A stretch of 64,000 nucleotides of DNA, taken from positions 55,154 through 119,153 of the forward strand of contig NZ_KE383853.1 of NCBI RefSeq assembly GCF_000422485.1. The letters are read 5' to 3'. Source of the stretch: Paenibacillus pasadenensis DSM 19293. GTDB taxonomy: Bacteria > Bacillota > Bacilli > Paenibacillales > Paenibacillaceae. The notes beneath the pieces were generated by a model, which was not told the origin of the DNA, did not search any database, and saw only the letters and a list, made by a program, of their open reading frames with translations. Shown piece by piece: positions 1-29,645 of the stretch. How positions within the stretch are numbered: position 1 is the first letter of the stretch; each line of letters starts with the position of its first letter. A program made the position numbers and the translations under genes.

Positions 1-390
1 GCCCGAGTTACTCGGTCTTTCCGCGCAACTCCCTCCGTTTCTCCTCCTGCACGCCCGAGTTACTCGGTTTTTCCGCGTAATTGCCTACGAACGCGCACCT
101 CAAAGCCCTGCAACCCGAGTTTTTCGAGTTACAGGCTCGGATACGCTCTGCCCTGGTGACTGCAACCCGATTTTTTCGGGTTACAGGCTCGGATACACTC
201 TGCCAGACGGCTGCAACCCGATTTTTTCGGGTTACAGCCTCGGATGCGCTCTGCCTGGCGCCTGCAACCCGATTTTTTCGGGTTAGAGGCTCGGATGCAC
301 TCTGCCCAGGAGCTGCAGCCCGACTTTTTCCGGTTACGGTCTCGGATGCGCGCCGCCGGGCAGCTGCAATCCGAGTTTTTCGAGCGATCC
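1..390. repeat. Palindromic repeat array, locus 1
   Basis: The first two units (starting near 2 and 54) carry the arm GAGTTACTCGG and are of the type seen again at 28733-29340. They are followed by six units starting at 108, 160, 211, 262, 313 and 364 with the core CTGCAACCCGA, a T-rich loop and TCGGGTTACAG, the type seen again at 29382-29640. Spacing is 52, 51, 51, 51 and 51 bp. The last units are degenerate. The text between palindromes is itself similar from unit to unit, so these are tandem repeats and not CRISPR spacers. I see no gene between 1 and 522. Confidence 0.85.
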
Positions 391-522
391 CGTGACGGAC
401 GATCGAGCGATGAGCGTCGATGTGATGGAGCGGACGCCTCTCAAAAGCGCCGCCCCCCTCTCCCTTTATCTGGATAAAGATGCTGTGGAGAGCGAACGCT
501 ATCCGCAAGGAGGTGAACGCAG

Positions 523-690
523 ATGAGCAAGTCCCAGCCCTTCGAGCCGTACCGATACGCCGAGCTTCCCCTCGTGGCAGTGGAAAGGATCCGGGAGCTG
601 GAGCAATCGCTGTCGGACGGAGAAGGCCGCCCGGTGACGCTGATCGCTTTCGAACCCGAGCCGGAGAGCCAGGCTCCGAACGCCCGATAA
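523..690 (+). CDS. Small acidic protein of unknown function (55 aa)
   Basis: I do not recognise this 55-residue protein. It begins MSKSQPFEPYRYAEL, has a short amphipathic stretch (LVAVERIRELEQSL, residues 17-30) and an acidic tail ending in QAPNAR. There is no signal peptide, membrane segment or cysteine, so it is probably cytosolic. It is called a gene because a near-perfect ribosome binding site, AAGGAGGTGA at 507-516, sits six bases before the ATG and because a strong hairpin terminator lies 40 bases after the stop codon (731-764). Overlapping longer frames in this stretch have no such start signal. It stands alone, with a repeat array upstream and a convergent gene downstream, so context gives no clue to its job. 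A conserved lineage-specific small protein is the most likely explanation. Confidence 0.65.
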   Translation: MSKSQPFEPYRYAELPLVAVERIRELEQSLSDGEGRPVTLIAFEPEPESQAPNAR

Positions 691-730
691 CCAAGCTAGA
701 ATGCAGTATTCCGATAGTTGGGAAAACCAA

Positions 731-764
731 AAACCAAACCGCCTCGTCACCAGCGGTTTGGTTT
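731..764. terminator. Bidirectional terminator
   Basis: A perfect 12-bp inverted repeat, AAACCAAACCGC and its complement, encloses a 10-base loop. T-rich tracts follow on both sides. It lies between the convergent genes ending at 690 and 885 and probably serves both. Confidence 0.75.
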
Positions 765-884
765 CTATCCTTATTCATAGCCGTCAGCCGCTCAAGCTCC
801 GCTTTTGTCTCAGGGTGTACGATGCTGGTGGTGGAGCCAAGCCCGCTTCCATCTCAACTCGAGGCTGCAAACGAGACTGCAACG

Positions 885-1271
885 TTACGGCCACACTCCG
901 TTGTGCAAATCGGCGCAGCCGCGGTCGTCGGGCCAGACATAGACCCAGCCCTGACGGGCCGGATCGTCGAGATCCCGCGTCCAGATCCGCTCGTAGTCAT
1001 TCGCCTCTTCCGGGCCGAAAAATTCCTCCAGCCGATCGCAGGCGGCCAAGCCGTCGCGCTCCAGCAGCAGCCACCAGCCCCGAACGGCCCGGTTCAAAGC
1101 GGAAAGCTCGCGGACAAGCGCGGGATAATGGCCGTCCGCCGCGTCGACGAGGCGCCCCCGCACCCGTCCCGGCCGCTGCGCAAGGACGAACGGAGCGACG
1201 ACGCCGAAGTTGCTGCGTCCGGGCTGTAGCGTACCGTAGACAAACATCCAGATGCCAGAGGATGGGGACAT
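885..1271 (-). CDS. Gamma-glutamylcyclotransferase (AIG2/GGCT) family protein
   Basis: This is a GGCT-fold protein of about 128 residues. The family signature VYGTLQPG is at residues 11-18, followed by RGRLVDAADGHYPALV and a C-terminal block with EEFFGPEEANDYERI, which matches the usual pattern for small bacterial GGCT/AIG2-like enzymes. Such proteins typically release 5-oxoproline from gamma-glutamyl amines or peptides in the cytosol. The start is uncertain: ATG at 1271 and ATG at 1247 (MFVYGT) both lack a good Shine-Dalgarno, and the frame stays open upstream to 1640 through a 39-bp minisatellite that would add a cysteine-rich 123-residue repeat extension. The 5-oxoprolinase genes just downstream on the map (pxpA and others) would consume the 5-oxoproline that a GGCT makes, so a functional link is plausible. 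That link is inference from neighbourhood, not shown by the sequence. Confidence 0.75.
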   Translation of the reverse strand: MSPSSGIWMFVYGTLQPGRSNFGVVAPFVLAQRPGRVRGRLVDAADGHYPALVRELSALNRAVRGWWLLLERDGLAACDRLEEFFGPEEANDYERIWTRDLDDPARQGWVYVWPDDRGCADLHNGVWP

Positions 1272-1374
1272 CAACGAATGTGCTTGATCAGCCTGAGGCA
1301 GCGGAGCGGATGGAGCGGATGGGCCGCGAGCGGCTTGCGGATCGTTGCTCACAGGGCATGCGGGGCGATGTGCC

Positions 1375-1711
1375 TTCGAGCCGCCGGCCTCGGGGCATGC
1401 CCCGAGAGTGGCTTCCGAGCCGCCGGCCTCGGAGCAAGCGTCGAGAGGTGCTTTCGAGCCGCTGACCTCGGAGCATGTGCCGAGAGTGGCTTCCAAGCCG
1501 CTGGCCTCAGGGCATGCGTTGAAAAGGGCTTTCAAGCCGCCGGCTTCGGAGCATGCGCCGAGAGGTGCTTCCGAGCCGCTCGCCTCGGAGCATGCACCAA
1601 GAGGAGGTTCCAAGCCGCCGGCCTCGGGAGCATGCGCCAAGAGGAGCTTCCGAGCCGCCGGCTTCGGGGCTTGCTCCGAGAAGGGCTTTCGAGCCCCTGG
1701 CCTCGGAGCTG
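1375..1711. repeat. 39-bp minisatellite
   Basis: About eight and a half tandem units of 39 bp, with the core TTCGAGCCGCCGGCCTCGG. One unit is 40 bp. Because 39 is a multiple of three, long frames stay open on both strands. On the minus strand it reads as a 13-residue repeat (ACSEAGGSEATLG type) in frame with the GGCT gene for most of its length. It fills the 1272-1742 gap between the GGCT gene and pxpA, where I see no other gene. Confidence 0.85.
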
Positions 1712-1742
1712 GAGCGGCTGCGGCGAGCCTCCAGCACGCCGC

Positions 1743-2510
1743 TCATGGCTGCCAAGGCGCGCGCACGGCGACGCCGGCCGCCTCCAGGCCGGCGCGGATA
1801 AGCGCGGCCAGCTCGGCCGCGCCCGGTCCGTCGCCGTGCAGGCACAGCGTCCGAGCCGCCACCGGCGCGAAGCCTCCGCCCAAGGCGGGCGCCTCGCCGC
1901 GCAGCGCGATCGTCAGCGCCTGCTCCAGCGCTTGGGACGGCTCGCCGTGCACGGCGCCGGGCCGGTCCCTGCCGGCGAGCGAGCCGTCCGGCAAGTAGGC
2001 GCGGTCGGCGAAGCCTTCCGCCGCGAACGGCAGTCCGGCCGAGACGGCCGCGCGCTCCAGCAGTCCGCCGGGAGGGCCGAACAGCGCCAGCCCGCCCAGC
2101 TCGGCGGCAGCCCGGGCGACCGCATCCGCATGGGCCTGGCTGGCTCCGCAGCGATGATACATCGCGCCATGCGGCTTGATGTGGCGCAGCTCGCCGCCGG
2201 CGGCGCGCACGAACGCCTGCAGCGCGCCCGTCTGATAAAGGACGGCCTCGTACACCTCCTCGGCGTCCAGCGCCATCGCGCGGCGGCCGAAGCCTTGCCG
2301 GTCCGGGTAGCCCGGATGGGCGCCGACCGCCACGCCGGCTAGCAGGCAGCGCTCGACCGACGTCCGCATCGTGCGGGCGTCGCCGGCATGCCAGCCGCAG
2401 GCGATGCTGGCGCTCGTGATGGAGCCGAGCAGCGCGGCGTCATCTCCGAAGGCGTAGCTTCCATACCCTTCGCCGAAATCGGCGTTCAGGTCGATCGTCG
2501 GCTTTTGCAT
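1743..2510 (-). CDS. pxpA: 5-oxoprolinase subunit A (LamB/YcsF family)
   Basis: PxpA is the hydrolase-like subunit of the prokaryotic ATP-dependent 5-oxoprolinase PxpABC, which opens 5-oxoproline to glutamate in the cytosol. The 255-residue length is normal for the family. Diagnostic motifs are DLNADFGEG near the N-terminus (residues 7-15), ACGWHAGD (about 37-44), VGAHPGYPD (about 62-70) and HIKPHGAMY in the middle. The ATG at 2510 follows AAAAGGAGG with good spacing. It is the last gene of a minus-strand run, after a MOSC gene with a gap of only 21 bases. In many Firmicutes pxpA is adjacent to pxpB and pxpC. Here pxpC is one gene upstream and pxpB is about 3 kb further away, so the operon has been interrupted. 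Confidence 0.93.
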   Translation of the reverse strand: MQKPTIDLNADFGEGYGSYAFGDDAALLGSITSASIACGWHAGDARTMRTSVERCLLAGVAVGAHPGYPDRQGFGRRAMALDAEEVYEAVLYQTGALQAFVRAAGGELRHIKPHGAMYHRCGASQAHADAVARAAAELGGLALFGPPGGLLERAAVSAGLPFAAEGFADRAYLPDGSLAGRDRPGAVHGEPSQALEQALTIALRGEAPALGGGFAPVAARTLCLHGDGPGAAELAALIRAGLEAAGVAVRAPWQP

Positions 2511-2531
2511 GCGGGATGGCCTCCTTTTCCC

Positions 2532-3140
2532 CTACATCGGGGGGATGATGCGGATCTCGTCGCCGAACGCGATGCGGCCGGGACGCTCCACCGAGCAGAC
2601 GATGCCGCGCCGGCCGCGCGCGGCCTTCACGAACGCCTGCGGCAGCCGCTCCTTGGGAGCGACATGCCGCTCGACCTCCTTGCCGGCGTCGGTGCAGGGA
2701 TGGTTCTCGCCTTCGCAGACGAGCCCGGCGCCGCTTGGGAAAAGCAGCCGCGAGCCTGCGGGCAGCTGCGTCAGCCCGGGATAGCCGGAGAGCAGCAGGT
2801 TGCCGCCGATCCACTCGGGATCGAGCGCCTCGATGCCCATCCGCTCCCGCGTCTCCTCCAGCTCCTCGCGCGAGAGGATGCTGATCTGCCGACGGTTGAG
2901 GATCTCGGTGCCGCGAGGATACATCGGCTGGCGGCTGTCCGCGCGGGACGTCACGCCGAAGTGGCGGTCGCCGCGGATTCCGCCGAACTCCAGCTCTGCC
3001 TCCGCAAGCTCGCGGGAGACGAAGCTGCCCGGCGCATCGGCCGTATACAGGCCGGCCACGAAGGCCGGCGACCCTTTCCTCTTGCCGGACTTGGCGCTGC
3101 TCGCAGCCTGCGGGTCGACGCCCGGCTGATCGTTGGTCAT
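2532..3140 (-). CDS. MOSC domain-containing protein
   Basis: This 202-residue cytosolic protein matches the MOSC family, related to the C-terminal domain of molybdenum cofactor sulfurase and to YiiM-like proteins. MOSC proteins handle sulfur transfer to, or use of, the molybdenum cofactor. Visible markers are GGIRGDRHFG (about residues 53-62), the block PRGTEILNRRQISILS and the cysteine-containing segment GLVCEGENHPCTDAGKEV, where the conserved MOSC cysteine lies. The start ATG at 3140 is preceded by AGGAGGAAAG. The N-terminal 20 residues are hydrophilic and probably disordered. It lies within the pxpC-pxpA run on the same strand with gaps of 21 and 29 bases, so it is likely co-transcribed with them, although no biochemical link is known to me. 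The specific substrate cannot be told. Confidence 0.8.
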   Translation of the reverse strand: MTNDQPGVDPQAASSAKSGKRKGSPAFVAGLYTADAPGSFVSRELAEAELEFGGIRGDRHFGVTSRADSRQPMYPRGTEILNRRQISILSREELEETRERMGIEALDPEWIGGNLLLSGYPGLTQLPAGSRLLFPSGAGLVCEGENHPCTDAGKEVERHVAPKERLPQAFVKAARGRRGIVCSVERPGRIAFGDEIRIIPPM

Positions 3141-3169
3141 GTCGCTTTCCTCCTGTTCAAATGAAAAAA

Positions 3170-4267
3170 TCAGCTGTCAGCGGCCGGCGCGCGGCGCTGC
3201 TCCTGCAAGAAGCGTTCGGTCCGAAGGCGCAGCGCGGCTTCGAGCCGGTCGAGCTCCCGCTGCTGCCGCAGCAGGAGGCGCTGCGCCTCCTCCAGCTCCA
3301 CGCGGAGGAAGCGCGTCCCGTCGCCGGGCCGCAGCTGGCCGAGCCGCGGCAGGTCGGCGGCGATGACATGCAGGATGACGGGATAACCGCCCGTCGTCTG
3401 GCAGCCTGCCGCCAGCGCGACGGGATGGCCGCCGGGCGGGAGCTGCACCGCGCCCGGCAGCACGCCGTGCGAGCGCAGCTCCGCGCGGCGCTCGAGCTCG
3501 ATCGGATGGGCGTCCGGGATGAGCCGGACGCCCATCCGATCGCTGGCGGGAGAGGCGGCGAGCCGCTCCCGCCACAGCCGCTCCCGGGCAGCCTGCGTCA
3601 GCTGCCCGTAAGCGGCTCCCGGCACCGCGCGCAGCACGGCGGTGCCGGAGCCGTCGGCTCCGCCGCGCGCCACGAGGCGCGGCGCGAGCCACGGCGCGGC
3701 GGCGGGCAGCCTCCCGCCGCCGCCGGCCTGGGCGGCGCGCTGCGCGAGCGCCGCCAGCAGCGCCGCGCCGCGCGCCGAAGGCTCGCCGCGGCGGAGCGCC
3801 TCGCCGGCGGCAAGCCGGCGGCCGATGCCGGCGCGTTCATCGCCGCCGGCCGCGCCACAGGCCGCCGCCCCCGGCGCGGCGAGGCCGCCTGCGGCGGCCA
3901 AGTAGGCGCGGCAGCCGGAGCGCGCCGCGCCGAGCGAAAGCGTGCCGCCCGCCGGCAGCCAGACGGCTCGGCCCGCAGGCACCGGCACGCCGTCCAAGTC
4001 GGCCGGCATGTCGGCGCCGCAAATCGCCGCGAGCACGCCGTCCGGCGCGTCGACGCGCATGCGGACGCCGCCGAGCGCCAGCTCCAGCGCCGGCGCGCCG
4101 CGCGAATTGCCGCACAGCAGATTGGCTGTCTGCAGCGAGACCGCATCCATCGCGCCGCCGGCCGGCATGCCCTGGGCTCGCAGGCCGGGACGGCCCAGAT
4201 GCTGCAGCTCGGCGCCGAAGCCGGGGCGGATGATCGTGAACGCCGCTTCCTTCGTCCTCATCCTCAT
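3170..4267 (-). CDS. pxpC: 5-oxoprolinase subunit C (KipA/AHS2 family)
   Basis: PxpC is a biotin-dependent-carboxyltransferase-like (AHS2/KipA) protein that works with PxpB and PxpA in ATP-dependent 5-oxoprolinase. About 365 residues from the chosen start, with the conserved N-terminal block IIRPGFGAELQHLGRPGL and GGAMDAVSLQTANLL (about residues 10-45), the GGVRMRVDAPDGV segment and the C-terminal QTTGGYPVILHVIAADLPRL, all typical of the family. A frame opens at 4306, but the AAAGGAAGG ribosome site lies just before two ATGs at 4267 and 4261, so one of these is the likely start. The final 50 residues form a charged helix (RFLRVELEEAQRLLLRQQ), typical of the family tail. Upstream is the XRE regulator on the same strand. 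Downstream are the MOSC gene and pxpA. Confidence 0.88.
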   Translation of the reverse strand: MRMRTKEAAFTIIRPGFGAELQHLGRPGLRAQGMPAGGAMDAVSLQTANLLCGNSRGAPALELALGGVRMRVDAPDGVLAAICGADMPADLDGVPVPAGRAVWLPAGGTLSLGAARSGCRAYLAAAGGLAAPGAAACGAAGGDERAGIGRRLAAGEALRRGEPSARGAALLAALAQRAAQAGGGGRLPAAAPWLAPRLVARGGADGSGTAVLRAVPGAAYGQLTQAARERLWRERLAASPASDRMGVRLIPDAHPIELERRAELRSHGVLPGAVQLPPGGHPVALAAGCQTTGGYPVILHVIAADLPRLGQLRPGDGTRFLRVELEEAQRLLLRQQRELDRLEAALRLRTERFLQEQRRAPAADS

Positions 4268-4634
4268 CCCTTCCTTTCCGCGCTCATGACCTTCATTGTA
4301 GCTCATGCCGGCTCCAGCTTGCCATCCCGCGCCTCGACCTCATCGACTGGCCCCGCGACCAGCTGCTTGGCCGGCAGCCCGTTCCGCTGAAGCGCTTCGG
4401 CTGGCCTGTCCGCATGAAGCCACGACAGACTTCCATTCCCTCCGCTCGCGGCTCCGCCTGCCGCTCAGCCGCCCCGCTCCTCGTCCATCAGCCGCCTCAT
4501 CTTCTGCCCAGCCGCCCGCTCCTCGTCCATCAGCCGCCTCATCTTCCGCTCAGCCGCCCTGCTCCTCGTCCATCAGTCGCCTCATCTTCCGCTCAGCCGC
4601 CCGCTCCTCGTCCATCAGCCGCCTCATCTTCCGC
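4268..4634. repeat. 42/43-bp minisatellite at the end of the XRE regulator gene
   Basis: From about 4461 to 4680 there are five tandem units that alternate between 42 and 43 bp (43, 42, 43, 42, 43). On the minus strand the unit reads KMRRLMDEERAAER, a heptad-like coiled-coil repeat. The 43-bp units carry one extra base in the GGGCGG or GGGGCGG tract. The unit nearest the gene has the extra base, which shifts the frame and gives a stop at 4635. The stretch 4268-4460 holds no further feature I can support. Confidence 0.85.
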
Positions 4635-5492
4635 TCAGCCGCCCCGCTCCTCGTCCATCAGCCGTCTCATCTTGCGCTCCGTCGCCGTGCCTTGAGCGGG
4701 CGTGTAGATGCTGACGCGCAGATCCGGCTGTCCCTGGGCCTGCAGGCTCGTCAGCTGGAACTGCATCTTGCCCGCGCGGGCGTGGCGGAACTCCAGGATC
4801 ACCTCCGGCGCGGCGCTGACGCGGCTCTCCTCCCAGAGCGGGGCGAAGCGGGCGTCGCGCCGCTCCATCGCCTCGATGAAGCGGGAATACCAGTCGTCGT
4901 CGGCATACCGGCCGTAGTAATAGCGGAACAGCGCCAGATAGCCCCGTACGAACTGCTCCCAGTTGACGGCGAGCCGCTGCAGCTCCGGCCGGGTGAACAG
5001 CAGCGTGATCATGTTGCGCTCCTCCGTGGGCACCGAGCCGAAGTCGAGAAAAACGCGGGCCGCCGCCTCGTTCCAGCCGGCGATCCGGCAGCGGCGATCC
5101 GAGACGATCGCGGGACAGCCGGCCAGCTCGTCCAAAATCCGCCCCAGCGGAGCGGGCAGCGCCGCCGGCTCGTCGGACGCGCTCCTCTCCGGCTCGCCGC
5201 CCTCTGCGGCGTCGCCCGCCAGCGCGGCCATGTACCGCTTTTCGTCCGCATTCAGCCGCAGCGCCTTCGCCACCGCGTCGAGCACCGAGGACGAGACGCG
5301 GATGTCCCGTCCTTGCTCGAGCCAGGTGTACCAGGTCGGGCTCACACCGGCCAGCTGCGCGACCTCCTCCCTCCGCAGCCCCGGCGTCCGCCGCCTCCCC
5401 CCTGCGGGAAAGCCGTGCTCCTCCGGCAGCAGCGCCATCCGGCGCGAGCGCAGAAATTCCGATAGAGCCTTCAGCCTCTCCTGTCGGTTCAT
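4635..5492 (-). CDS. Helix-turn-helix regulator with MmyB-like ligand-binding domain
   Basis: A 285-residue XRE-type DNA-binding protein. The N-terminal HTH reads LRSRRMALLPEEHG then RRTPGLRREEVAQLAGVS and WYTWLEQGRDIRVS (about residues 13-72), the hallmark of the MmyB family. The rest matches the MmyB ligand-binding (PAS-like) domain with YLALFRYYYGRYADDDWYS. These repressors often control a divergently transcribed neighbouring gene, and here the fabF-like gene is divergent and starts 111 bp away. The start at 5492 is preferred because GAGGAGGAAG ends four bases before it; an ATG at 5513 lacks that. The C-terminus ends in KMRRLMDEERGG, the first unit of a tandem repeat, and is cut short by a one-base expansion in a G tract. 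Confidence 0.85.
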   Translation of the reverse strand: MNRQERLKALSEFLRSRRMALLPEEHGFPAGGRRRTPGLRREEVAQLAGVSPTWYTWLEQGRDIRVSSSVLDAVAKALRLNADEKRYMAALAGDAAEGGEPERSASDEPAALPAPLGRILDELAGCPAIVSDRRCRIAGWNEAAARVFLDFGSVPTEERNMITLLFTRPELQRLAVNWEQFVRGYLALFRYYYGRYADDDWYSRFIEAMERRDARFAPLWEESRVSAAPEVILEFRHARAGKMQFQLTSLQAQGQPDLRVSIYTPAQGTATERKMRRLMDEERGG

Positions 5493-5603
5493 GCCCTTCC
5501 TCCTCGATCCCATTACTTCTTATCCTAGTATAAACAACAACTTGTACCAGCATAAGAGCTGTGCGAAACTGCGCTTATCCGCAAGCTGCGAAGGAGATGG
5601 AGC

Positions 5604-6899
5604 ATGATGGAGCTTTACACGAACGCCGCCCCGTCCAGCAAGGAGCATCGCGTCGTCATTACCGGCATGGGAGCCGTCAGTCCGTTCGGCGCCGGCGCCG
5701 AGACGTTATGGACCGCCCAGGCAGAAGGCCGCTCGGGCATCCGCCGCCTGCAAGAAGGCGGATGGCCGGAGGAGTGGCTGGAGCAGGCCGACGAGCGGGC
5801 GATTGCCGGCCTCGTGCCCGATTGGGACGGAGAAGCCCGGTTCGGCCGCAAAGAAGCCCGCAAGATGGACCGCTTCGTGCAGTTCGCGCTCGCGGCGGCC
5901 GAGGAAGCGCTCGGCCAGGCCGGACTCGGCGAGGGCCGGCTCGTGCCGGATCGGACGGCCGTTTATGTCGGCTCCGGCATCGGCGGGCTCGGCACGCTCA
6001 TGGAGCAGGCGCGCGTGCTGGGCGCCCGCGGCCATAGCCGCGTCAGCCCGACGCTCGTGCCGATGATGATCGCCAACATGGCCGCCGCGGAAATCAGCAT
6101 CCGCTACAGCCTGACCGGGCCGACGCTCTCGCCGGTGACCGCCTGCTCGATCGGCAACACGGCGATCGGGGAAGCGATGCGCCTGCTGCGCGCCGGCATC
6201 GCCGATGTCTCCGTCGCCGGCGGATCCGAAGCCGCCGTCGTCCCGATCGCCCTCGCCGGCTTCGGCAACGCGACCGCGCTCGCTTCGTCGGGCGGCGATC
6301 CGGCGGCGGCCAGCCGTCCTTTCAGCCGCAGCCGCTCCGGCTTCGTCATGGCCGAGGGCGCCGGCATCGTCGTGCTCGAGACGCTCGCCCATGCGCTTGC
6401 GCGCGGCGCCGAGCCGCTGGCCGAGGTGCTCGGCTACGGCGCGACCTCCGACGCGTACCACCGGGTCGCGACCGAGCCGACCGGCCGCGGCGCGGCGGCC
6501 GCCATGCGGCTGGCGCTCGCCGACGCCGGCCTGGAGGCCGAGCGCGTGGACCTCGTCTGCGCCCATGCGACCGGCACGCCGGCCGGCGACCTGTCAGAGA
6601 GCCGGGCGATCCGCAGCGCGCTCGGCGAGCGAGGCGGGAGCGTGCCGGTATTCGCCGGCAAGTCGATGACCGGCCATATGCTCGGCGCATCAGGCGGCGC
6701 GCAGGCGATCACGCTCGTCCGCATGCTGCGCGAGGGGCTGATCGCGCCGACGCTCAACCAGGAGGAGCCCGACCCGGACTGCGCCTTGACCGTCCCGGCC
6801 GCCCCGCGGCGCGAGAGTCTGGCGGTCGGGCTGTCCAACTCGTTCGGCTTCGGCGGCCATAATGCCGTCATCGCGCTCGGCCGGTTCGAGGATCGCTGA
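5604..6899 (+). CDS. fabF: Beta-ketoacyl-ACP synthase II (FabF/KAS family)
   Basis: A 431-residue thiolase-fold condensing enzyme that extends acyl-ACP with malonyl-ACP in fatty acid or polyketide-like synthesis in the cytosol. The catalytic triad is visible: Cys181 in VTACSIGN, a His in CAHATGTPAGD (about residue 318) and a His in SNSFGFGGHN near the C-terminus. The lysine of FAGKSMTGHMLGASG is also in place. The start has the site GAAGGAG seven bases upstream. It stands alone, with no fabD, fabG or acpP beside it, and a strong terminator follows. The cell's main fabF is often next to fabH or acpP, so this may be a second copy or serve a special lipid. It is divergent from an MmyB regulator that may control it. 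Confidence 0.88.
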   Translation: MMELYTNAAPSSKEHRVVITGMGAVSPFGAGAETLWTAQAEGRSGIRRLQEGGWPEEWLEQADERAIAGLVPDWDGEARFGRKEARKMDRFVQFALAAAEEALGQAGLGEGRLVPDRTAVYVGSGIGGLGTLMEQARVLGARGHSRVSPTLVPMMIANMAAAEISIRYSLTGPTLSPVTACSIGNTAIGEAMRLLRAGIADVSVAGGSEAAVVPIALAGFGNATALASSGGDPAAASRPFSRSRSGFVMAEGAGIVVLETLAHALARGAEPLAEVLGYGATSDAYHRVATEPTGRGAAAAMRLALADAGLEAERVDLVCAHATGTPAGDLSESRAIRSALGERGGSVPVFAGKSMTGHMLGASGGAQAITLVRMLREGLIAPTLNQEEPDPDCALTVPAAPRRESLAVGLSNSFGFGGHNAVIALGRFEDR

Positions 6900-6927
6900 G
6901 CCGGCAGCCGCCGCTCGTTTCACGAAA

Positions 6928-6970
6928 AGAGTCCAGCCCGTTTTCCAAAGGGCTGGACTCTTCAACCTTT
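6928..6970 (+). terminator. Terminator after the fabF-like gene
   Basis: Perfect 12-bp stem AGAGTCCAGCCC with its complement, a 10-base loop and a downstream T-rich tract (TTCAACCTTTT). Confidence 0.85.
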
Positions 6971-7026
6971 TCGATAAAAGATGGTGAAGCATCATCACCA
7001 TCTTTCGAGCTGATCTTCCACATCTA

Positions 7027-7207
7027 TTTTGAATGAAATATCGTACAAACTCTCCGTCGAGCAGACCTATTTCGACCTATTTGTACGACAAACCACACAA
7101 AATTCCCACCCGACTTTTTAGGAAAGCTTGGTTTGGATGAAAAACCGCACAAAACACCCCGAAAGCGAGCTTGAAGATCCATTTTGTGTAAATCATCATA
7201 CAAATGG
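7027..7207. repeat. AT-rich semi-palindromic array with 52-53 bp period
   Basis: Four related elements end at about 7050, 7102, 7155 and 7207. On the minus strand the core is TTTTGTGTGG then TTTGTCGTACAAAT; the last copy reads in the opposite direction. Spacing is 52, 53 and 52 bp, the same period as the GC-richer palindrome arrays at 1-390 and 28733-29640, although the sequence is unrelated. Copies are 65-80 percent alike by eye. The gap 6900-7296 holds this array and the fabF terminator but no gene I can support. Confidence 0.6.
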
Positions 7208-7296
7208 AGCTACTTTCGTCAATCGTGCAGCAAAAGGTCCGCTTGCCCCTCGCCTTCATGCCCTAGACATGATTTTGCCGCTGGGAAAGTCGAGTT

Positions 7297-8133
7297 CTAC
7301 TCCACCGGAACGAACCGCACCCGGTCTCCGGGGGCGAGCAGCGCGGGACGCTCGCGGGCGGGGTCGTACAACGACGCAGCGGTGCGTCCGATCAGCTGCC
7401 AGCCGCCCGGAGATTCCGACGGGTAGAGACCGGTCTGCGCGCCGCCGATGCCGACCGATCCGGCCGGAACGCGCAGCCGCGGCGCATCGAGCCGGGGCTG
7501 CGCCAGCTCCGGCGGCAGTCCGTCGAGATAGGGAAAGCCAGGCAGGAAGCCGAGCATGACGACTCGGTACAGCGGCTTGGAATGCGCCGCGATGAACGCG
7601 CTCGGCGTCATGCCGCTGCGCCGCGCCGCCTGCTCCAGATCGGGCCCGTGCTCGCCGCCGTAGCGCACCGGGATCTCGATCGCGGCCCGCTCCGCCGCTT
7701 CGGGCGGCGGAGGCAGCTCGGCCAGCCGATCCTCGATCAGGCGCTGCGCCAGCCGCCACGGGACAGCGCCCTTCCGGCCGCGCTGCAGCCGCGCCGGATC
7801 GTAGACGGCCAGCACGCTCTCATAGGCCGGCACCGCGTCCTCCAGCCACTCCCAGCCTGCCGCCTCCAGCCAAGCCGCGGCATGGGCCAGCAGCCGCTGC
7901 AGCGGCTCGCCCTCCGGCGGCGCCGAGCCGTCCCCCGGCGGGAGCAGCAGCAGCGCCCGGTCTCCGGCCGGCTCGCAGCGCAGCGGCGGCTTGCGCAGCC
8001 CGGCAGCCGCGCCGCTCATGACCGCTTCGGACGGCCTCTCCCGCTCGCCTCCCGTCGGCTTCCGCTCCCGCTCGTCCCGCTCGCTGCCCGTCGCCATCCG
8101 CTCCTGCTCGTCCCGCCCGCTGCCCGTCGCCAT
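7297..8133 (-). CDS. pxpB: 5-oxoprolinase subunit B (KipI/AHS1 family)
   Basis: PxpB is the AHS1/KipI-type subunit of ATP-dependent 5-oxoprolinase. The conserved core starts at [14 protein letters not shown] (about residue 50) and includes [16 protein letters not shown], then [15 protein letters not shown], the [18 protein letters not shown] segment and GGWQLIGRT, all diagnostic. The start at 8133 is supported by GGAGGGG seven bases upstream. It gives an unusual 38-residue leader made of near-repeats ([35 protein letters not shown]) encoded by 33-36 bp tandem repeats. A later ATG at 8019 has only a distant ribosome site. PxpB normally lies next to PxpC; here a divergent fabF and an XRE regulator lie between. 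PxpB alone (KipI) inhibits the sporulation kinase KinA in Bacillus subtilis. Confidence 0.9.
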
Positions 8134-8396
8134 CGGCTACCCCTCCGCTCGGTCTCCTGCGTTGTCGGCATGCGGCGGCAGCCTCCCGCCCGCCTCGCCT
8201 GCCGGCCCGTCGATCACATTCCTTCATTATCTTCGCCGCGTCGCGAAGCTGTCAACGACGCCCGGCGGAGGACGCCTCGCCCCCCGCGCGGCGTTCTCCG
8301 CCGGCGGCGCGCTCCGGCTCCGGATGGTATACTGCTTTCTATAGAGAAACTTTTTGCGCGAGACAGTCGTTGATTGCACAGGAGGCTCACATCTAC

Positions 8397-11527: not shown

Positions 11528-11531
11528 CCGC

Positions 11532-12954: not shown

Positions 12955-12967
12955 AGGAGGCCCGCCG

Positions 12968-16512: not shown

Positions 16513-16519
16513 GCTTTTG

Positions 16520-19893: not shown

Positions 19894-19933
19894 CCTGCTG
19901 CAGCCGGCCTTTGCTCGTCCCGGCCGGCCAGCC

Positions 19934-24093: not shown

Positions 24094-24189
24094 GTCGATT
24101 CCTTCCTGATGGCTGATCGGACGGCGTGAATCGTTCCCTCACGAGGAGGATAGCCGCTAGTTCATTATCGGAATACACGATGGAAATGC

Positions 24190-24235
24190 TGAACAGCCCG
24201 GCTCCGGCGGATGCCGGAAGCGGGCTGGTGCTGTT
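24190..24235 (-). terminator. Possible weak terminator after the VWA gene
   Basis: Stem CAGCCCG and CGGGCTG with a GC-rich inner hairpin (GCTCCGG and CCGGAAG). The T run is poor, so it may be only a pause site. Confidence 0.4.
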
Positions 24236-24269
24236 GCGGGAAGGGAGGATCGGGCGGATGCAGGCGGGC

Positions 24270-25787
24270 TCAGCCCTCCGCGTGCCGGCTGATCAGATCG
24301 ACGAGCAGATCGTTCAGCGGCATGATCTGCGGCTCGACGCCCTCCGGCTGCTTATGGCCGTTGCCGATGCCGCTGTCGTCGGTCAGGAACACGTAGCTGC
24401 CGCCGGTCGAGACGGCGAGCGTGCGCAGAAGCAGCTCCGTCTCCAGGTCGGTGCCGCTCGCGGCGACCGGCACGATGCGGATGCCCTGCTTCGCCGCTTC
24501 GGCGGCCGCATGCTGGATGCTTTCGCGCTCCCGAAGTCCTTGGTGGGGCGGAGCGTCGAGCACGAGCAGCATCAGCCTCGCCCTCGCGCTGCGGCTCCAA
24601 TCATGCTCCAGCACGGCATCGGTCAGCGCCTCGGCGACCGCCTCCGGGTAGTCCTGTCCGCCGTCGGCCTCCTGCCGGGCGATATGCGCCTGCGCCTTGA
24701 CGGCGTCCTCGAGGAACGGGAACGACCGCACGACATACTCGTCGTTGTGGTCGCGGTAGAAGTTCGGGCTGATCCGGACGGTCAGGTTCTGCCCGATGTT
24801 TTTCTTGACGCGGGAGACGACGTTCGTCAGCTCGGTCGATAGATAGCTCAGCTCGTCGGCCATCGACCCGGTCGTATCGATCATGAGCAGCAGGTCGAGC
24901 ACGGCGTCCGGCTGCGCCGCTTCCCGGTCGGTCTCAAGCTTCATGACCCGCCCCGCCCAATCCTTCGCTTCCGCTTCTCGTACGAGAAGTCCGTTCCCCC
25001 CGTCGATTTGGACCGAGCAGTCCTGAGGCGCGGCGGCCTGATCTTTTGAGCCTCCCTGCTGCTCGCTCGAAGCAGCCGGCTCGTTTTGCAGCTCCACGTC
25101 CTGCCGGCTTCGCGACTCGAGCAGTCCCGCGAACAGCGTCGCCTGTCCCTTGCCGTCGGTGCGAGCCGTCCATTCCCGCTTGCCGCCGCATTGCAGGATG
25201 ACCTCGACGTCCCGTGCCGGCTTGCCTTTGGCCGTCGCCTGCACCGTCAGGCGGCGATAGGGGGCGAAGCCCCAGGCAGCCGGATAAGGACTGTCCTGAA
25301 TCAGCTCCGTCCAGCGGCTCCACGCGCCGAGATCGTCCCATTCTCCTGCCGTCAGCATGCCGGCTTGCGGTTCGGGCATTTGCCGCGGCTCTGCCTTTGG
25401 AGGCATGGCGTCCGAATGCTGGAGCTCAGCGCTTTCTGCGGCGGATGCTGCGGCGGATGCGTCAGCCGCAGAGGGCTCCTCGCTCCCTTGCGCCGCGGCA
25501 GCGCCGGACGAAGCCTCTTCCGCCGCGCTCTTCTGCGGCGCGCCGGCGACGGACTCCCGGCTGGCCGCGTCTACGGCGGCGGCTCCGCCTGCAGAAGCTT
25601 CCCCGCTCCCCGGGACCGCCCCTTCATCCGCCGCGCCGCAGCCGGTCAGCAGCGCCGCGATCAGCAGGCTGGCCGTGGCCAGCTTCAGCCGCGGACCGAT
25701 CTTGGTCCATCGGAGTCCTCGGCCGCTCTCTGGCGCAGGCTGCCGGTTCGTTTCCGTGCCCGACGGCTCGTCGTTTCTCTTTTTCAT
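24270..25787 (-). CDS. VWA-domain lipoprotein
   Basis: A 505-residue exported lipoprotein. The N-terminus is basic (MKKRNDEPSG), then after a hydrophobic stretch comes the lipobox LLIAALLTGCGAAD, so the cysteine near residue 51 should be lipidated. The next 100 residues are a low-complexity Ala, Glu and Ser linker. Residues about 150-300 form an unassigned module. The C-terminal von Willebrand A domain carries the metal-ion site DTTGSM together with downstream Asp residues (VLDAPPHQG), which binds ligands through a divalent ion. Start: ATG at 25787 follows GGGGGCGATGAGC; ATG at 25793 is too close. Upstream and divergent is the small gene at 25927. Such proteins often scaffold surface interactions; the partner is unknown. 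Confidence 0.85.
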   Translation of the reverse strand: MKKRNDEPSGTETNRQPAPESGRGLRWTKIGPRLKLATASLLIAALLTGCGAADEGAVPGSGEASAGGAAAVDAASRESVAGAPQKSAAEEASSGAAAAQGSEEPSAADASAAASAAESAELQHSDAMPPKAEPRQMPEPQAGMLTAGEWDDLGAWSRWTELIQDSPYPAAWGFAPYRRLTVQATAKGKPARDVEVILQCGGKREWTARTDGKGQATLFAGLLESRSRQDVELQNEPAASSEQQGGSKDQAAAPQDCSVQIDGGNGLLVREAEAKDWAGRVMKLETDREAAQPDAVLDLLLMIDTTGSMADELSYLSTELTNVVSRVKKNIGQNLTVRISPNFYRDHNDEYVVRSFPFLEDAVKAQAHIARQEADGGQDYPEAVAEALTDAVLEHDWSRSARARLMLLVLDAPPHQGLRERESIQHAAAEAAKQGIRIVPVAASGTDLETELLLRTLAVSTGGSYVFLTDDSGIGNGHKQPEGVEPQIMPLNDLLVDLISRHAEG

Positions 25788-25871
25788 GCTCATCGCCCCC
25801 GGTTGCTTTCCTGTGGGATCAAGACCCAATTCTGGATCTTGCTGTGATGGACGGACGCCCGCTCCGAAAGG

Positions 25872-25900
25872 TTGCATCGCGGCAGTGCCGCAGGTACAAT
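25872..25900 (+). promoter_or_regulatory. Sigma-A promoter for the 100-aa protein, with a palindrome in the spacer
   Basis: TTGCAT, a 17-base spacer and TACAAT. The spacer contains the palindrome GCGGCAGTGCCGC (25879-25891), a possible operator. Confidence 0.7.
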
Positions 25901-25926
25901 CAGGAGCAGACGGGAGAGAAATCGAC

Positions 25927-26229
25927 ATGGAAACGTATCCGCTGCTGCTGTTGACGCTGACTCATGGCGGCTGGACGAAAGAGCTGGAGATGGAATCGGC
26001 CGAGCTGGCGCTCGTCACGGACGCCGGCTCGAGGCTGTGGTATATCGACGTGAACGGAGTGGCCGACAGCGAGCTGCTGGACTATTTCTATACGGCATCG
26101 GACATCGGCGTCGAGGTGTCCGCGCTGACGAAGGACGGCCGCAGGCTGGAAGGAACGGCTTACTTCCATGCGAACAAGCTCCATCGGGCCGCCGCGCTGC
26201 GCGGCGACGGCGAGCTGATCGGCGTTTAG
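25927..26229 (+). CDS. Small protein of unknown function (100 aa)
   Basis: A 100-residue protein I cannot name. It starts METYPLLLLTLTHGGWTKEL and continues with SRLWYIDVNGVADSELLDYF and TASDIGVEVSALTKDGRRLE. No signal peptide or membrane segment is convincing: the early leucine run is short and followed by charged residues, so it should be cytosolic. The mix of alternating hydrophobic and polar residues suggests a small alpha-beta fold. A GGGAGAG site lies at the right distance from the ATG, a good sigma-A promoter is just upstream, and a strong terminator follows. It is divergent from the VWA lipoprotein gene. It is monocistronic, so no pathway is implied. Confidence 0.75.
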   Translation: METYPLLLLTLTHGGWTKELEMESAELALVTDAGSRLWYIDVNGVADSELLDYFYTASDIGVEVSALTKDGRRLEGTAYFHANKLHRAAALRGDGELIGV

Positions 26230-26269
26230 GCCGGAGGCCGGCGCGGCTCCGGGCCGACCGCGATTCCAA

Positions 26270-26317
26270 GCAAGAGGCAGCCGGCACGTCGCTCGCGGCG
26301 CGCCGGCTGCCTCTTGC
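26270..26317. terminator. Strong hairpin terminator
   Basis: A perfect 16-bp stem, GCAAGAGGCAGCCGGC and its complement, follows the gene at 25927-26229 by 40 bases. T run is short. Confidence 0.7.
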
Positions 26318-26330
26318 ATGTTGAAAAAGC

Positions 26331-26380
26331 AGGGGCGGTTCCGAAGGTCAATGAAAACGACCTTTGGAACCGCCCCTTTT
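26331..26380. terminator. Second, bidirectional terminator between convergent genes
   Basis: AGGGGCGGTTCCGAAGGTC pairs with GACCTTTGGAACCGCCCCT around an AATGAAAAC loop. T runs lie on both sides, so it can end both the plus-strand gene at 25927 and the amidoligase operon. Confidence 0.8.
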
Positions 26381-26422
26381 CAAAAATGCGGCCGCTCCCG
26401 GGCAGGCAAGGCCTGACATGCA

Positions 26423-26614
26423 TCAGCTCTCCTTGTCTCCCCCGTCGAGCACGCGCAGGTTGTTCCGTCTCCGGCTCGGAGAGCGGACCTCCGCCTCGAG
26501 CTCCCGCACTTTGTCCTCCAGCTCGCGGATGCGCCGGGTCAGACGGTAGACCGGCTGGGCCATGAGCGCGACGGCGATCAGCAGCCACACGACCGGCAGC
26601 ATTCCTTCGCTCAT
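26423..26614 (-). CDS. Small membrane protein with coiled coil (63 aa)
   Basis: A 63-residue protein with one membrane segment at residues 5-20 (MLPVVWLLIAVALMAQ) followed by a basic stretch and a heptad-patterned helix (RIRELEDKVRELEAEV, residues 28-43), then a charged tail. The layout is N-out or N-in single-span with a cytosolic coiled coil, typical of small scaffold or partner proteins. Its ATG overlaps the stop of the preceding 204-residue protein (ATGA), so the two are translationally coupled and it is the last gene of the amidoligase operon. A ribosome site is hard to define because of the overlap. No named family is recognised. Confidence 0.75.
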   Translation of the reverse strand: MSEGMLPVVWLLIAVALMAQPVYRLTRRIRELEDKVRELEAEVRSPSRRRNNLRVLDGGDKES

Positions 26615-27225
26615 GACCGGTCTTCGCCGGCTTCAGCCAGCGCCTCCAGCAGCAGCTCCAGCTCCAGCTCCTGAACCCGCTCCAGCAGCGGCGTATCCGC
26701 TCCGGCATGGCCGGTCAGCGCGGAGGCGGCCGCCAGGTCCGTCAGCAGCGCCGGGTCCACGCCCGGCTCGCGGCGCAGCCGGCGGGCGAGAGCCGGCTCC
26801 GCATCCGGCGTGCCGTCGAGCAGCTGCTCGGTCCGGCGGCGCCAGGTCTCGGCGCGGGGATGCGGGCCGGCGAGCCGGAACCAATACTTCGCGTTGGAAA
26901 AGTCCCCTTCCATCCGGTGCATCATCCCGTGCAGATAGCTGCCGTCGGGACCGTCCAGCTCCTGCGACAGCTCATGCGAGCGGTTCAAGCTGCCGTTGCG
27001 CAAATGCAGGCCCGATACGAGCGCCAGCAGCCGCAGCCTCGACTCCTCCTCCCCGATCCGGCGCTCACGCAGCTCCAGCAGCCGCGCCGCCTCCCGGTCG
27101 AGACGCCGCTCGCGCTCCTCGACGATCGGATTCCCGTCCGGAGCCAGCGGCAGCCTGCGCTCCTGCAGCGCGGCAGCCAGCTCTGCGGCCAGCCTGACCT
27201 GAATTTCCTGAAGTTCCCTTTCCAT
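26611..27225 (-). CDS. Uncharacterised protein with HRMEGDFSNAKYWF motif (204 aa)
   Basis: A 204-residue soluble protein. The first 75 residues are a charged coiled-coil-like helix (VEERERRLDREAARLLELRE). The core around residues 75-125 reads HLRNGSLNRSHELSQEL, then GSYLHGMMHRMEGDFSNAKY and WFRLAGPHP. From memory this pattern (His, Arg, acidic residue, then NAKYWFR) is the signature of an uncharacterised family found in diverse bacteria and some eukaryotes, usually without known function; I cannot confirm this here. The C-terminal 60 residues are acidic and leucine-rich. The start has AGGAGGGAG upstream. It lies 21 bases after the amidoligase gene and overlaps the next small gene, so all three act together. 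A substrate for, or partner of, the amidoligase is a reasonable guess. Confidence 0.75.
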   Translation of the reverse strand: MERELQEIQVRLAAELAAALQERRLPLAPDGNPIVEERERRLDREAARLLELRERRIGEEESRLRLLALVSGLHLRNGSLNRSHELSQELDGPDGSYLHGMMHRMEGDFSNAKYWFRLAGPHPRAETWRRRTEQLLDGTPDAEPALARRLRREPGVDPALLTDLAAASALTGHAGADTPLLERVQELELELLLEALAEAGEDRS

Positions 27226-27246
27226 CCGGACTCCACTCCCTCCTGA

Positions 27247-28176
27247 TTATCCGTCGCCCAGCGGCTCCAGTCCGCCGGCGGCAAGCGCGCAGCGGAACCG
27301 ATGCAGCGAGCCTTCTTCATCCTCGACCGCTACCATGACGCCGCCGTCCGCAGCGACGATGTGATGGATCTCGCCGCCGGGCACGAGCTCCGCCGCCTGT
27401 GCCGTAAGCTGCGGCAGCAGGGCGTTCTCGAGCGCGATCCGCTCGCGATGCCAGCGAGGCGGATCGGCGCGCGGCGGGTAACCGCCGGACGGCGCGCCGA
27501 GCGCGGCGGCCAAAGCCGCCGGCTCATCCGGCAGGCGTTGCCCTCTGCAGGCGCCGTCCACGAACCGCAGGCAGAGCTCGACGACGCGCCTGACCTCGGC
27601 CGCCTCGAGCGTTCCGTTCGCGTAGCGGATCTCGACGGTGCCGATCTCGCTCCACGGCCTCAGATTGATGCCGCAGCGATGGGACTGCGGCCGTCCGCTG
27701 CGCCTCAGCGCCGCCAGATCGCCGCTGGCGCGGAAAGCCTCCGCCATCTCCGCCGTGATCGGCGGCGCATAAAAGCGGCGATGCGGGCTCGTGCCGAGCA
27801 GAGAGCTAAGCGCTTCCTGCGAGCTCAGCGCCGCCTCCAGCAGCGCGGGGAGCGCGGCTTCGCCGAACGGCTCCAGCCCTACATGCACATGCAGGCCGCA
27901 GCTCCAATTGGCTTGCGCCCCTTGCCGCCTCAGCCGCTCCAGCATCGCCTCCGCTTGATCGAGCTGCTCCCAGCGGAGGGGCGGCGACTGCAGCTCGCTG
28001 CCCGACGCCTCTCCGTCTCCGTCGATCTGCTTCTCGTCCAGCGCCATCGTCCAGCCCGGCAGCAGCTCCAGCCGCTCCGGCTCGCCGCCGACGAACTCGA
28101 TCTCCAGCCCGAAGCGCAGCTCCCGCCAGCGCTCCTCCATTCCGTCAGCAACGTTCCACTCGTTCCGTTCTCTCAT
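27247..28176 (-). CDS. Putative amidoligase (COOH-NH2 ligase of the glutamine synthetase fold)
   Basis: A 309-residue enzyme of the Amidoligase_2 type, predicted to use ATP to join a carboxylate to an amine. Family marks are LRFGLEIEFVGG near the start (the acidic metal-binding strand), GWTMALDEKQIDGDG then ASGSELQSPPL, the histidine strand CGLHVHVGL, and INLRPWSEIGTVEIRYANGT near residue 180-200, which corresponds to the Arg/Glu strand of the active site. The ATG at 28176 is preferred over one at 28185 because AAAGGGAGG sits nine bases upstream. It is the first gene of a three-gene operon with two uncharacterised proteins. Iyer and Aravind's survey linked such ligases to peptide modification and to GGCT-like enzymes; a GGCT gene exists at 885-1271, but far away. 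The real substrate is unknown. Confidence 0.8.
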   Translation of the reverse strand: MRERNEWNVADGMEERWRELRFGLEIEFVGGEPERLELLPGWTMALDEKQIDGDGEASGSELQSPPLRWEQLDQAEAMLERLRRQGAQANWSCGLHVHVGLEPFGEAALPALLEAALSSQEALSSLLGTSPHRRFYAPPITAEMAEAFRASGDLAALRRSGRPQSHRCGINLRPWSEIGTVEIRYANGTLEAAEVRRVVELCLRFVDGACRGQRLPDEPAALAAALGAPSGGYPPRADPPRWHRERIALENALLPQLTAQAAELVPGGEIHHIVAADGGVMVAVEDEEGSLHRFRCALAAGGLEPLGDG

Positions 28177-28279
28177 TCTCGCCATCCTCCCTTTTACGTT
28201 TCCTCCGTTCCGACCGGACAGGAAAGCGCAGGGAGGAGCGCGGGCACGCTCGGCTCCGCGAGCGACGGCATCGACGTTT

Positions 28280-28436
28280 GCGCGAATTCCGGCATTGCAG
28301 CCGGATCTGACGCCTGTGCGGACGCCGACATTGCAGCCGGCTCTATCGCCTGTGCGGACGCCGACATTGCAGCTAGCTCTGACGACTGTACGGGCGCCGA
28401 CATTGCAGCCGGATCTGGCGCGTACGCGGACGTCGG
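28280..28436. repeat. 36-bp minisatellite upstream of the amidoligase operon
   Basis: Four units with the core GACATTGCAGCCGGATCTG. On the minus strand they read as the 12-residue repeat AAMSASAQASDP. An open frame on that strand runs from 28403 to 28194 but has no ribosome site and is not called as a gene. Confidence 0.8.
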
Positions 28437-28732
28437 CCCCAGTTTTTGCTCCGGTCTTCTTACGGGATTAACGGGGCACCTTGTCTCTCGTCATCGTCCT
28501 TCCTCCCTCGCCGTTCGTTTGGGAATAGTTTACCATAACCTCCAGACCGCACCTAGCACCTTATCCAGCAGGATTATTTGTCATGAACGGCCGCTGCGAA
28601 AAGAGCCTGAAAGCAGCTCCCACTTGCTGGAGCTTACCCAGGCTGCAACGACTTGGGCCCGTATCGAAATCGCTCGCGCGATCCAAAGGACGTCGGCCTC
28701 TCTCGTCTCGGGCTAGCGGAGGCCGAACCCAT

Positions 28733-29355
28733 CGGAGTTACGCGGAAAAACCGAGTAACTCGAGCGAGCGGAGGCCGAAACGGTTGGAGTTGCTCGGAAA
28801 AACCGCGTAACTCGGGCTAGCGGGGGCCGAATCGGGCGGAGTTGCTCGGAAAAACCGAGTAACTCGGGCTAGCGGAGGCTGCACCAGTCGGAGTTACGCG
28901 GAAGAACCGAGTAACTCGAGCAAGTGAGTGCCGCACCCGTCGGAGTTGCTCGGAAAAACCGAGTAACTTGGGTTAGCGGAGGCTGCACCAGTCGGAGTTA
29001 CGCGGAAGAACCGAGTAACTCGAGCAAGTGAGTGCCGCACCCGTCGGAGTTGCTCGGAAAAACCGAGTAACTTGGGTTAGCGGGGGCTGCACCAGTCGGA
29101 GTTACGTGGAAGAACCGAGTAACTCGAGCAAGTGAGTGCCGCACCCGTCGGAGTTGCTCGGAAAAACCGAGTAACTTGGGTTAGCGGAGGCTGCACCAGT
29201 CGGAGTTACGCGGAAGAACCGAGTAACTCGAGCAAGTGAGTGCCGAACCCGTCGGAGTTAAGCGGAAAAACCGAGTAACCCGGGCTAGCGGGGGTCGAAA
29301 CGGTCGGAGTTGTGAGGCTAATCAAGTAACTCCGGTAGGCAGGCGTGTCGGTTAG
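28733..29355. repeat. Palindromic repeat array, locus 2a (52-bp units)
   Basis: Twelve units starting at about 28733, 28785, 28837, 28889, 28941, 28993, 29044, 29096, 29148, 29200, 29252 and 29304. Each holds the hairpin GAGTTGCTCGG, AAAAA, CCGAGTAACTC. In the middle the units alternate between two versions (GAGTTACGCGGAAGAACC and GAGTTGCTCGGAAAAACC), giving a 104-bp higher-order repeat that must have spread by duplication of dimers. No gene in 28437-29919. Confidence 0.9.
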
Positions 29356-29381
29356 AGTCGAAAAGACGGGCTGGCGAGACG

Positions 29382-29645
29382 CTGTAACCCGATTTTTTCG
29401 GGTTACAGCCTGAAAGACAGGCTGGTGAACCGCTGTAACCCGATTTTTTCGGGTTACAGCCTGAAAGACGGGCTGGCGAGACGCTGTAACCCGATTTTTT
29501 CGGGTTGCAGCTTGAAAGACGGGCCGGTTAACCGCTGTAACCCGATTTTTTCGGGTTACAGCCTGAAAGACAGGCTGGTGAACCGCTGTAACCCGATTTT
29601 TTCGGGTTACAGCTTGAAGACGGGCTGGCGAGACGCTGTAACTCG
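29382..29645. repeat. Palindromic repeat array, locus 2b (51-bp units)
   Basis: Five full units starting at 29382, 29433, 29484, 29535 and 29586 and a partial one at 29636. Each has the palindrome CTGTAACCCGA, TTTTT, TCGGGTTACAG. It is the same palindrome family as at 108-390, but the connecting sequence (CTGAAAGACGGGCTGGCGAG) differs. Confidence 0.9.

Follow-up and report, generated by a model that had tools for sequence, protein, structure and literature searches.

Intergenic repeat arrays of different sequence share a 51-52 bp period in Paenibacillus pasadenensis and its relatives: possible helically phased protein platforms

Eukaryotic satellite DNA combines monomers of varied sequence and one length with homogenisation within arrays, rapid turnover between species and one conserved, site-like box, and the single monomer length found across different satellites reflects the nucleosome. 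Mycobacterial interspersed repetitive unit/variable number tandem repeat (MIRU/VNTR) loci are built of tandem units, some 50-100 bp each, that occur in intergenic DNA at many loci and in several lengths. According to the abstract of PMC8122249, most eukaryotic satellite units are of nucleosomal length or of 5-10 bp. Repetitive extragenic palindromic (REP) sequences and bacterial interspersed mosaic elements (BIMEs) appear in PMC3733652 as high-copy, often clustered intergenic palindromes whose families vary among related species, and FtsK-orienting polar sequences (KOPS), in the abstract of PMC2680272, as 8-bp sites oriented from origin (ori) to terminus (ter). Here we describe tandem arrays in a 64,000-nucleotide stretch of Paenibacillus pasadenensis DSM 19293 (contig NZ_KE383853.1, positions 55,154 to 119,153, or G000:C10:55154-119153; hereafter the window), in the remainder of this genome (G000; 5.71 Mb in 49 contigs) and in related genomes. 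Their broad kind, dispersed intergenic repeat arrays, is known, but tests for REP identity failed, and the titles and abstract openings surveyed in the literature contain no report of one period common to many bacterial repeat families. The occurrence of different repeats at one length of 51-52 bp, about five turns of DNA, suggests that a common scaffold packages DNA or marks the chromosome. In our preferred reading, to which we give a probability of about one half, the arrays offer dimeric proteins a series of binding sites in helical phase along double-stranded DNA.

Two repeat families, A and B, lie side by side at two places in the window. At the first, two A units (5..83, minus strand, starts 5 and 57, 52 bp apart, with the A-rich spacer on the minus strand), beside which a third A site is located upstream of the window start, precede a B array (108..382, minus strand) of five recognisable units at 108, 160, 211, 262 and 313. 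At the second, an A array (28735..29281, plus strand, A-rich spacer on that strand) of 11 units at 52 bp, with a higher-order period of 104, is followed by a B array (29382..29612, minus strand) of five units at 51 bp. Tandem Repeats Finder (TRF) reported a period of 51 for 108-382 and for 29362-29642, and periods of 52 and 104 for 28707-29311; lag identity peaks at 52 for the A array (0.78) and at 51 for the two B arrays (0.82 and 0.71). An AT-rich stretch at 7027..7207 (no strand assigned), flanked by called convergent genes at 5604-6899 (+) and 7297-8133 (-), received no TRF call; its best lag is 52, with an identity of 0.44 that was matched at any lag from 20 to 89 by 2 of 500 mononucleotide shuffles, and it is a degenerate yet genuine repeat. 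A sequence-only reading of the window had proposed arrays of one common period of 51-53 bp. TRF and lag identity bear out the common period, in the window and genome-wide, and narrow it to 51-52, as a spacing of 53 occurs in only 4 of 354 A spacings and in no array of G000. The same reading had claimed an identical A/B order at both loci, which holds for left-to-right order. A and B share one orientation at the first locus but face opposite ways at the second, and across the genome neither their order nor their relative orientation is constant.

About 1.35 Mb of G000 was read, comprising contigs C10, C16 and C4 whole (665 kb) and targeted stretches of the remainder, along with about 0.8 Mb of a complete relative, G001 (5,168,992 bp). 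The 37 non-coding arrays of the three whole contigs (TRF, at least 2.4 copies) include 11 with a period of 51, 8 with 52 and 2 with 103/104, and the 29 coding tandem arrays of the same contigs include 1 at 51 and 0 at 52. Across all fetched DNA, where counts are enriched by the targeting of A and B stretches, non-coding arrays with periods of 49, 50, 51, 52, 53 and 54 bp number 1, 0, 39, 32, 0 and 1 in G000 and 1, 0, 4, 24, 1 and 0 in G001. A lag scan independent of TRF, applied to 185 intergenic regions from the three whole contigs, returned lag 51 in 12 regions, lag 52 in 10 and lags 50/53 in 0, with a median over lags of 0. Intergenic regions with lag 51 or 52 make up 14/185 in G000, 4/124 in G001, 1/58 in G007 and 0/71 in G002, the totals for the last two, both other members of the genus, being loose because the gene caller used the G000 model and is unreliable there. 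Spacings between the 354 adjacent A units of G000 and G001 are 49 bp in 1 case, 50 in 3, 51 in 67, 52 in 279 and 53 in 4. The recurrence of the period across families and species supports a spacing that is either selected or mechanically fixed.

The A unit is GAGTTRCGCGG-A5-CCGAGTAACTC, with a period of 52, and the B unit is CTGYAACCCGA-A5-TCGGGTTRCAG, with a period of 51. The A palindrome is imperfect, pair 8:20 being G.A in 195 of 214 units. Three palindromes had been described from the window as unrelated; A and B have a CG-A5-CG core in common and may be distant relatives, which leaves "unrelated" unproven for this pair, while the claim of different repeats at one period stands. Quite different repeats sharing the A/B period also exist in these genomes. 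The D family, CCAAGGCA..TGCCTTGG, has a period of 51-52, and further palindromic families at 51-52 bp are CAGTGGTAA-AT-TTACCACTG and CTACGCGCGG-T5-CCGCGCGTAG. The C family, TTAASTCGA-A5-TCGAGTTAA, accompanies A at several G001 loci, and the non-palindromic F family (GGGAGTCGAGAGTGCCTTGG) has 146 sites in G000 and 8 in G001, mostly in 51-bp steps or multiples. Examples of F lie at G000:C16:90377-90576, C4:44843-45200 and C14:111311-112228, and an end of F resembles half of the D palindrome. In the fetched DNA of G000 and G001, inverted repeats (a score reached by at most 1 of 20 shuffles) are commoner in arrays with periods of 50-53/102-104 (68/111) than in those with other periods (11/69). G000 contains at least 44 matches to the A array (40 of 69 candidates scored) and at least 48 to the B array (40 of 52 candidates scored). 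Lone sites are rare in the three whole contigs, with 2 of 58 for A and 0 of 27 for B, and of the two lone A sites one is at a contig start and the other 237 bp from an array.

Over 50 A-array consensus units, information per position averages 1.75 bits in the arms, 1.84 in the A5 spacer and 0.62 in the linker. Conservation extends past the arms, as GG(G) follows the right one and G..G precedes the left, and the A site may therefore span about 33 bp. Identity between A arrays is 0.90 in the arms and 0.46 in the linker (random, 0.34), and differences per site within arrays are 0.079 and 0.152, respectively. Loci of at least two A units number 44 in the G000 DNA read and 20 in that of G001; an orthologous G000 array is present for 15 of these 20, and 29 of the 44 G000 loci have no partner among them. 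The proteins flanking the 15 orthologous pairs are 83-100% identical between the two genomes, and the paired arrays agree in orientation in 15/15 and differ in unit number in 14/15. Linker identity between the genomes averages 0.43-0.85 over the pairs and is at most 0.65 in 14 of them; mean linker identity within an array reaches at least 0.69 in 21 of the 29 arrays in these pairs and is 0.23-0.63 in the other 8. Masked intergenic DNA around arrays has 0.136 gap openings per mismatch, an indel rate at which 4.5 of 15 linkers would be expected to keep their length. The modal period, taken in some pairs from only one or two spacings, is the same in 11/15, the remaining 4 having a tie in one array, and the simulated chance of at least 11 pairs sharing it is 0.0006. 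The impression gained from the window, that the period is kept while the linker changes and looks selected, is upheld here to the extent that the period is selected or else mechanically fixed: linker length is retained, linker sequence is not, and the period recurs in other families and species.

With up to 2 mismatches allowed, 2 of the 59 genomes searched, G000 and G001, contain the A pattern; of the 7 other members of the genus among them, 6 lack it. Absence from close relatives had been named beforehand as a finding that would speak for simple tandem duplication, and the outcome is mixed; A is indeed absent from six of seven, yet two of those six carry a different palindrome at 51-52 bp. 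This palindrome, CAAGTAGC-WAAA-GCTACTTG (up to 2 mismatches), has 279 sites in G006 and 209 in G007, and sites of this type were not found in six other genus members. Where neighbouring sites among the CAAGTAGC sites listed lie less than 60 bp from each other, the spacing is 51 bp in 83 cases, 52 in 10, 50 in 1 and 55 in 2 (93/96 at 51 or 52). The first window locus lies between a CopC/CopD-domain gene and a small gene for 55 aa (523..690, plus strand, no Pfam match) that anchors it, and the intergenic region holds A and B in G000, A in G001 and CAAGTAGC arrays in G006 and G007. In G007 the orthologue of the 55-aa gene sits just downstream of the 51-bp array of this other palindrome; in G006 the stretch read ends before the gene. 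The orthologous region of G002-G005 contains no 51-52 bp array. Two further orthologous loci, beside sdhB and a histidine kinase gene, carry 51-52 bp arrays in 2 of 8 genomes (G000 and G001). The intergenic region at sdhB exceeds 1.1 kb in these two genomes, compared with about 800-900 bp in G003/G004 and about 100-150 bp in G005-G007.

The listed A and B loci are extragenic, none of them overlapping a called gene. Gene calls came from a home-made caller; at window 480-5465, Pfam matched 3 of 3 tested minus-strand calls and 0 of 5 plus-strand open reading frames. The 89 array-bearing intergenic regions comprise 53 between co-directional genes, 23 between convergent genes, 3 between divergent genes and 10 at edges, the divergent context thus accounting for 3 of the 79 regions with both neighbours known, and the arrays keep away from divergent promoters. 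Many of these regions are 1-2 kb long. In G000 contigs C4, C6, C16, C18 and C25 a 51-52 bp array lies no more than about 150 bp from the contig start, several contigs beginning in one; the arrays, which may account for assembly breaks, probably broke the assembly at those contig starts and may be under-counted. Directly after the second B array, window 29653-29692 holds a near-perfect long hairpin (18-bp arms) followed by a CTTGCCCAACC repeat, and tandem repeats of 36, 39, 43 and 20 bp lie close to or between the arrays at window 28289-28432, 1377-1709, 4461-4686 and 29723-29799, respectively.

Pairing within the palindromes appears not to be maintained. At A pair 6:22, A.C occurs 17 times against 14.0 expected and Watson-Crick pairs 58 times against 63.7 expected, and at B pair 4:24, A.C occurs 24 times against 24.1 expected. 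Neither A nor B has stem covariation, and because variable arm positions are independent, hairpin pairing is probably not the feature on which selection acts. A positive contrast is given by M, which covaries and often lies in the same intergenic regions as the arrays; across 14 copies, 25 of its 35 predicted pairs show compensatory change. M is a dispersed element of ~134 bp with conserved GGAGAAGCGGCAGCGGT and ATCGGA, present in the fetched DNA of 7 of 8 genus genomes (63 full-length copies aligned; examples at G000:C15:60263-60396 on the minus strand and 61122-61255 on the plus strand), and by eye two outward-pointing copies flank an A array at roughly a dozen loci. Rfam returned no family at gathering score in the window, CRISPR families included, and in the one 3-kb stretch tested, which holds M elements and an A array, only sub-threshold matches and no credible match to M.

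Polarity was scored from the A-rich strand, over stretches that cover 241 of 271 A sites in G000 and 164 of 210 in G001. The leading strand of G000 was assigned by local GC skew; in G001, where dnaA is at position 1, GC skew changes sign at about 2.50-2.56 Mb. Of the loci read, 40 of 44 in G000 and 19 of 20 in G001, or 59/64 together, have the A-rich strand leading, although 15 loci are shared by ancestry and the two genomes are therefore not fully independent. Per unit, that strand is leading in 153 of 164 in the G001 stretches. Gene direction was rejected as the cause: 73% of called genes are leading (476/650, sampled G001 DNA), the A polarity exceeds this (p = 0.016 for 19/20 and 0.003 for 40/44), and A loci between convergent genes are leading in 15/15. 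The G000 exceptions are whole arrays, at C10:83888 (the 28735..29281 array of the window, with its A-rich spacer on the plus strand despite negative local GC skew), C17:107686, C3:346858 and C20:81438. The array at C17:107686 is reversed in its G001 orthologue (1236173) as well, and that at C20:81438 is probably mis-assigned, as the local skew is -0.005 and its G001 partner is leading.

If the arrays are phased platforms, each 20-33 bp site, usually an inverted pair of half-sites of 8-11 bp with a short A/T spacer between them, would bind a dimeric protein, and 51-52 bp would represent five turns at 10.2-10.4 bp per turn, which would place all dimers on one DNA face, where they could contact their neighbours or wrap DNA cooperatively. 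Because contact geometry matters, sites and linkers would be free to change in sequence as long as the period is held. The A family is directional as well; its direction might be read along with replication or be set by it, and its arrays may mark the arms of the chromosome. Near-five-turn spacing, conserved but independent half-sites, few lone sites and a non-divergent location fit cooperative dimers on one face, and of the earlier proposals that of a phased platform for a dimeric DNA-binding protein fits best. Several observations weigh against it. No binding protein was identified. Of the arrays with periods of 50-53/102-104, 43/111 are no better than shuffles for an inverted repeat, and F, with its 146 G000 sites, keeps a 51-bp period without being palindromic; a dimer at every site is thus not general. 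B is not polar (10 of 21 loci leading), nor are the CAAGTAGC loci (6 of the 12 G007 loci leading among those listed, assuming a skew flip near 2.4-2.5 Mb suggested by small samples), and F is mixed. Even for A, 30/271 sites in G000 and 46/210 in G001 lie outside the stretches, and polarity is known for part. Polarity goes with A and with its partner C (the latter judged by eye), not with the common period, and the link to replication or segregation through ori and ter suggested from the window is supported in part, by A but not by B or the listed CAAGTAGC loci. Finally, neither the 200 kb read in G002 nor, in G002-G005, any of the three orthologous loci examined yielded a 51-52 bp array, so any function is not required genus-wide.

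The principal rival to phased platforms holds that the arrays are selfish or neutral satellites, amplified by replication or recombination in 51-52 bp steps, as by a mechanical ruler, and of no use to the cell. The period is common to families of different sequence, including non-palindromic F, copy number differs in 14/15 orthologous pairs, linkers homogenise within many arrays, and the arrays are lineage-specific, with none seen in some species, all of which favour this view. We nevertheless consider it unlikely, because bare amplification gives no reason for arms to outlast linkers between arrays (0.90 vs 0.46) and within them (0.079 vs 0.152 differences per site), and coding tandem repeats have no 51-52 peak (1/29 at 51, 0 at 52). 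A site-specific recombinase or transposase that recognises inverted repeats could instead propagate the arrays, with spacing set by a synaptic complex. Site size (11-bp arms and a 5-bp centre, which may resemble tyrosine recombinase core sites) and the A/T centre would suit such an enzyme, the 29 of 44 G000 A loci left unpartnered among 20 G001 loci may indicate spread, and the leading-strand bias could reflect insertion at forks; yet no enzyme was identified (Y1/RAYT transposase is absent from both genomes, other recombinases not having been searched for) and the two A arms carry a fixed mismatch (pair 8:20); we consider this improbable.

Equally doubtful is a polar replication or segregation signal, akin to KOPS, SpoIIIE recognition sequences (SRS) or Ter, as the main role, in which A would be read by a translocase or a fork-arrest protein. 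Polarity at 59/64 A loci and at 15/15 convergent ones, the same orientation at 15/15 orthologous loci, and the positions in G001 of dnaA (1) and of the skew flip (near 2.5 Mb) are what it would predict, but none of the 5 genomes searched has RTP, the period occurs without polarity in B and the listed CAAGTAGC loci, reversal is tolerated (C17:107686 and G001 1236173 are both reversed), and KOPS are described in the abstract of PMC2680272 as 8-bp sites, not arrays. A transcribed multi-hairpin RNA, which the sequence-only reading had offered as its other possibility, is the least credible. Inverted repeats with short loops, mostly between co-directional or convergent genes, would be expected of it, but A pair 6:22 and B pair 4:24 are near independence where the M element covaries at 25/35 pairs, and the arms of A and B vary independently.

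Extending the phased-platform reading, we tentatively suggest a bacterial satellite-DNA system, in which an architectural complex with a five-turn footprint would set 51-52 bp genus-wide. Sites would be replaced wholesale between lineages (A/B/C versus CAAGTAGC), at least once at the same chromosomal place, and the sites of one lineage would be oriented along each replichore, marking chromosome direction; this remains less probable than not. If true, a packaging or phasing unit can mark a genome lacking nucleosomes with one repeat length. The 11 A sites in identical phase in the window offer an easy bait for the protein, and the polar A arrays a natural test of chromosome-arm orientation in a bacterium without RTP.

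Compared with known systems, these arrays resemble REP/BIMEs in being high-copy, intergenic, clustered palindromes whose families differ between related species, but lack RAYT, a consistent tag and stem covariation. Y1/RAYT transposase (PF01797) was found in neither array genome (0/2, G000 and G001; 5 of 14 control genomes positive), the REP GTAG tag occurs in 1 of 85 B linkers and in none of the 178 A linkers, and CGTC in 3 of 85 B linkers and 19 of 178 A linkers, the latter more than the roughly 0.025 per linker expected by chance, where a conserved tag would be in most. With no head-head pattern either, and stem pairing not kept, REP/RAYT identity was rejected. CRISPR was rejected because spacers are not unique and linkers are alike within arrays (>=0.69 in 21/29), and an RTP/Ter fork trap because the RTP gene (PF02334) was found in 0 of 5 genomes, the B. 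subtilis control being positive. Plasmid, phage and viral origins were set aside, as window 28707-29645 has no match in the plasmids or phages searched and the A core none in viral contigs; a single match in a Burkholderiaceae metagenome-assembled genome was taken as chance, in a contig collection that may omit near relatives. The orientation of A arrays tracks the replichore, as for KOPS, SRS and Ter, but here the arrays are long, polarity is limited to A and its C partner, and RTP is absent. Like mycobacterial MIRU/VNTR loci, these are intergenic tandem units at many loci, with the difference that one length here spans many families. A parallel to that combination lies in eukaryotic satellites, which likewise have one monomer length, varied sequence, homogenisation, rapid turnover and a conserved site. 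We know of no packaging particle of 51-52 bp size; the arrays described here differ from those satellites in being bacterial, built on 51-52 bp, short (2 to about 20 units) and spread over dozens of loci.

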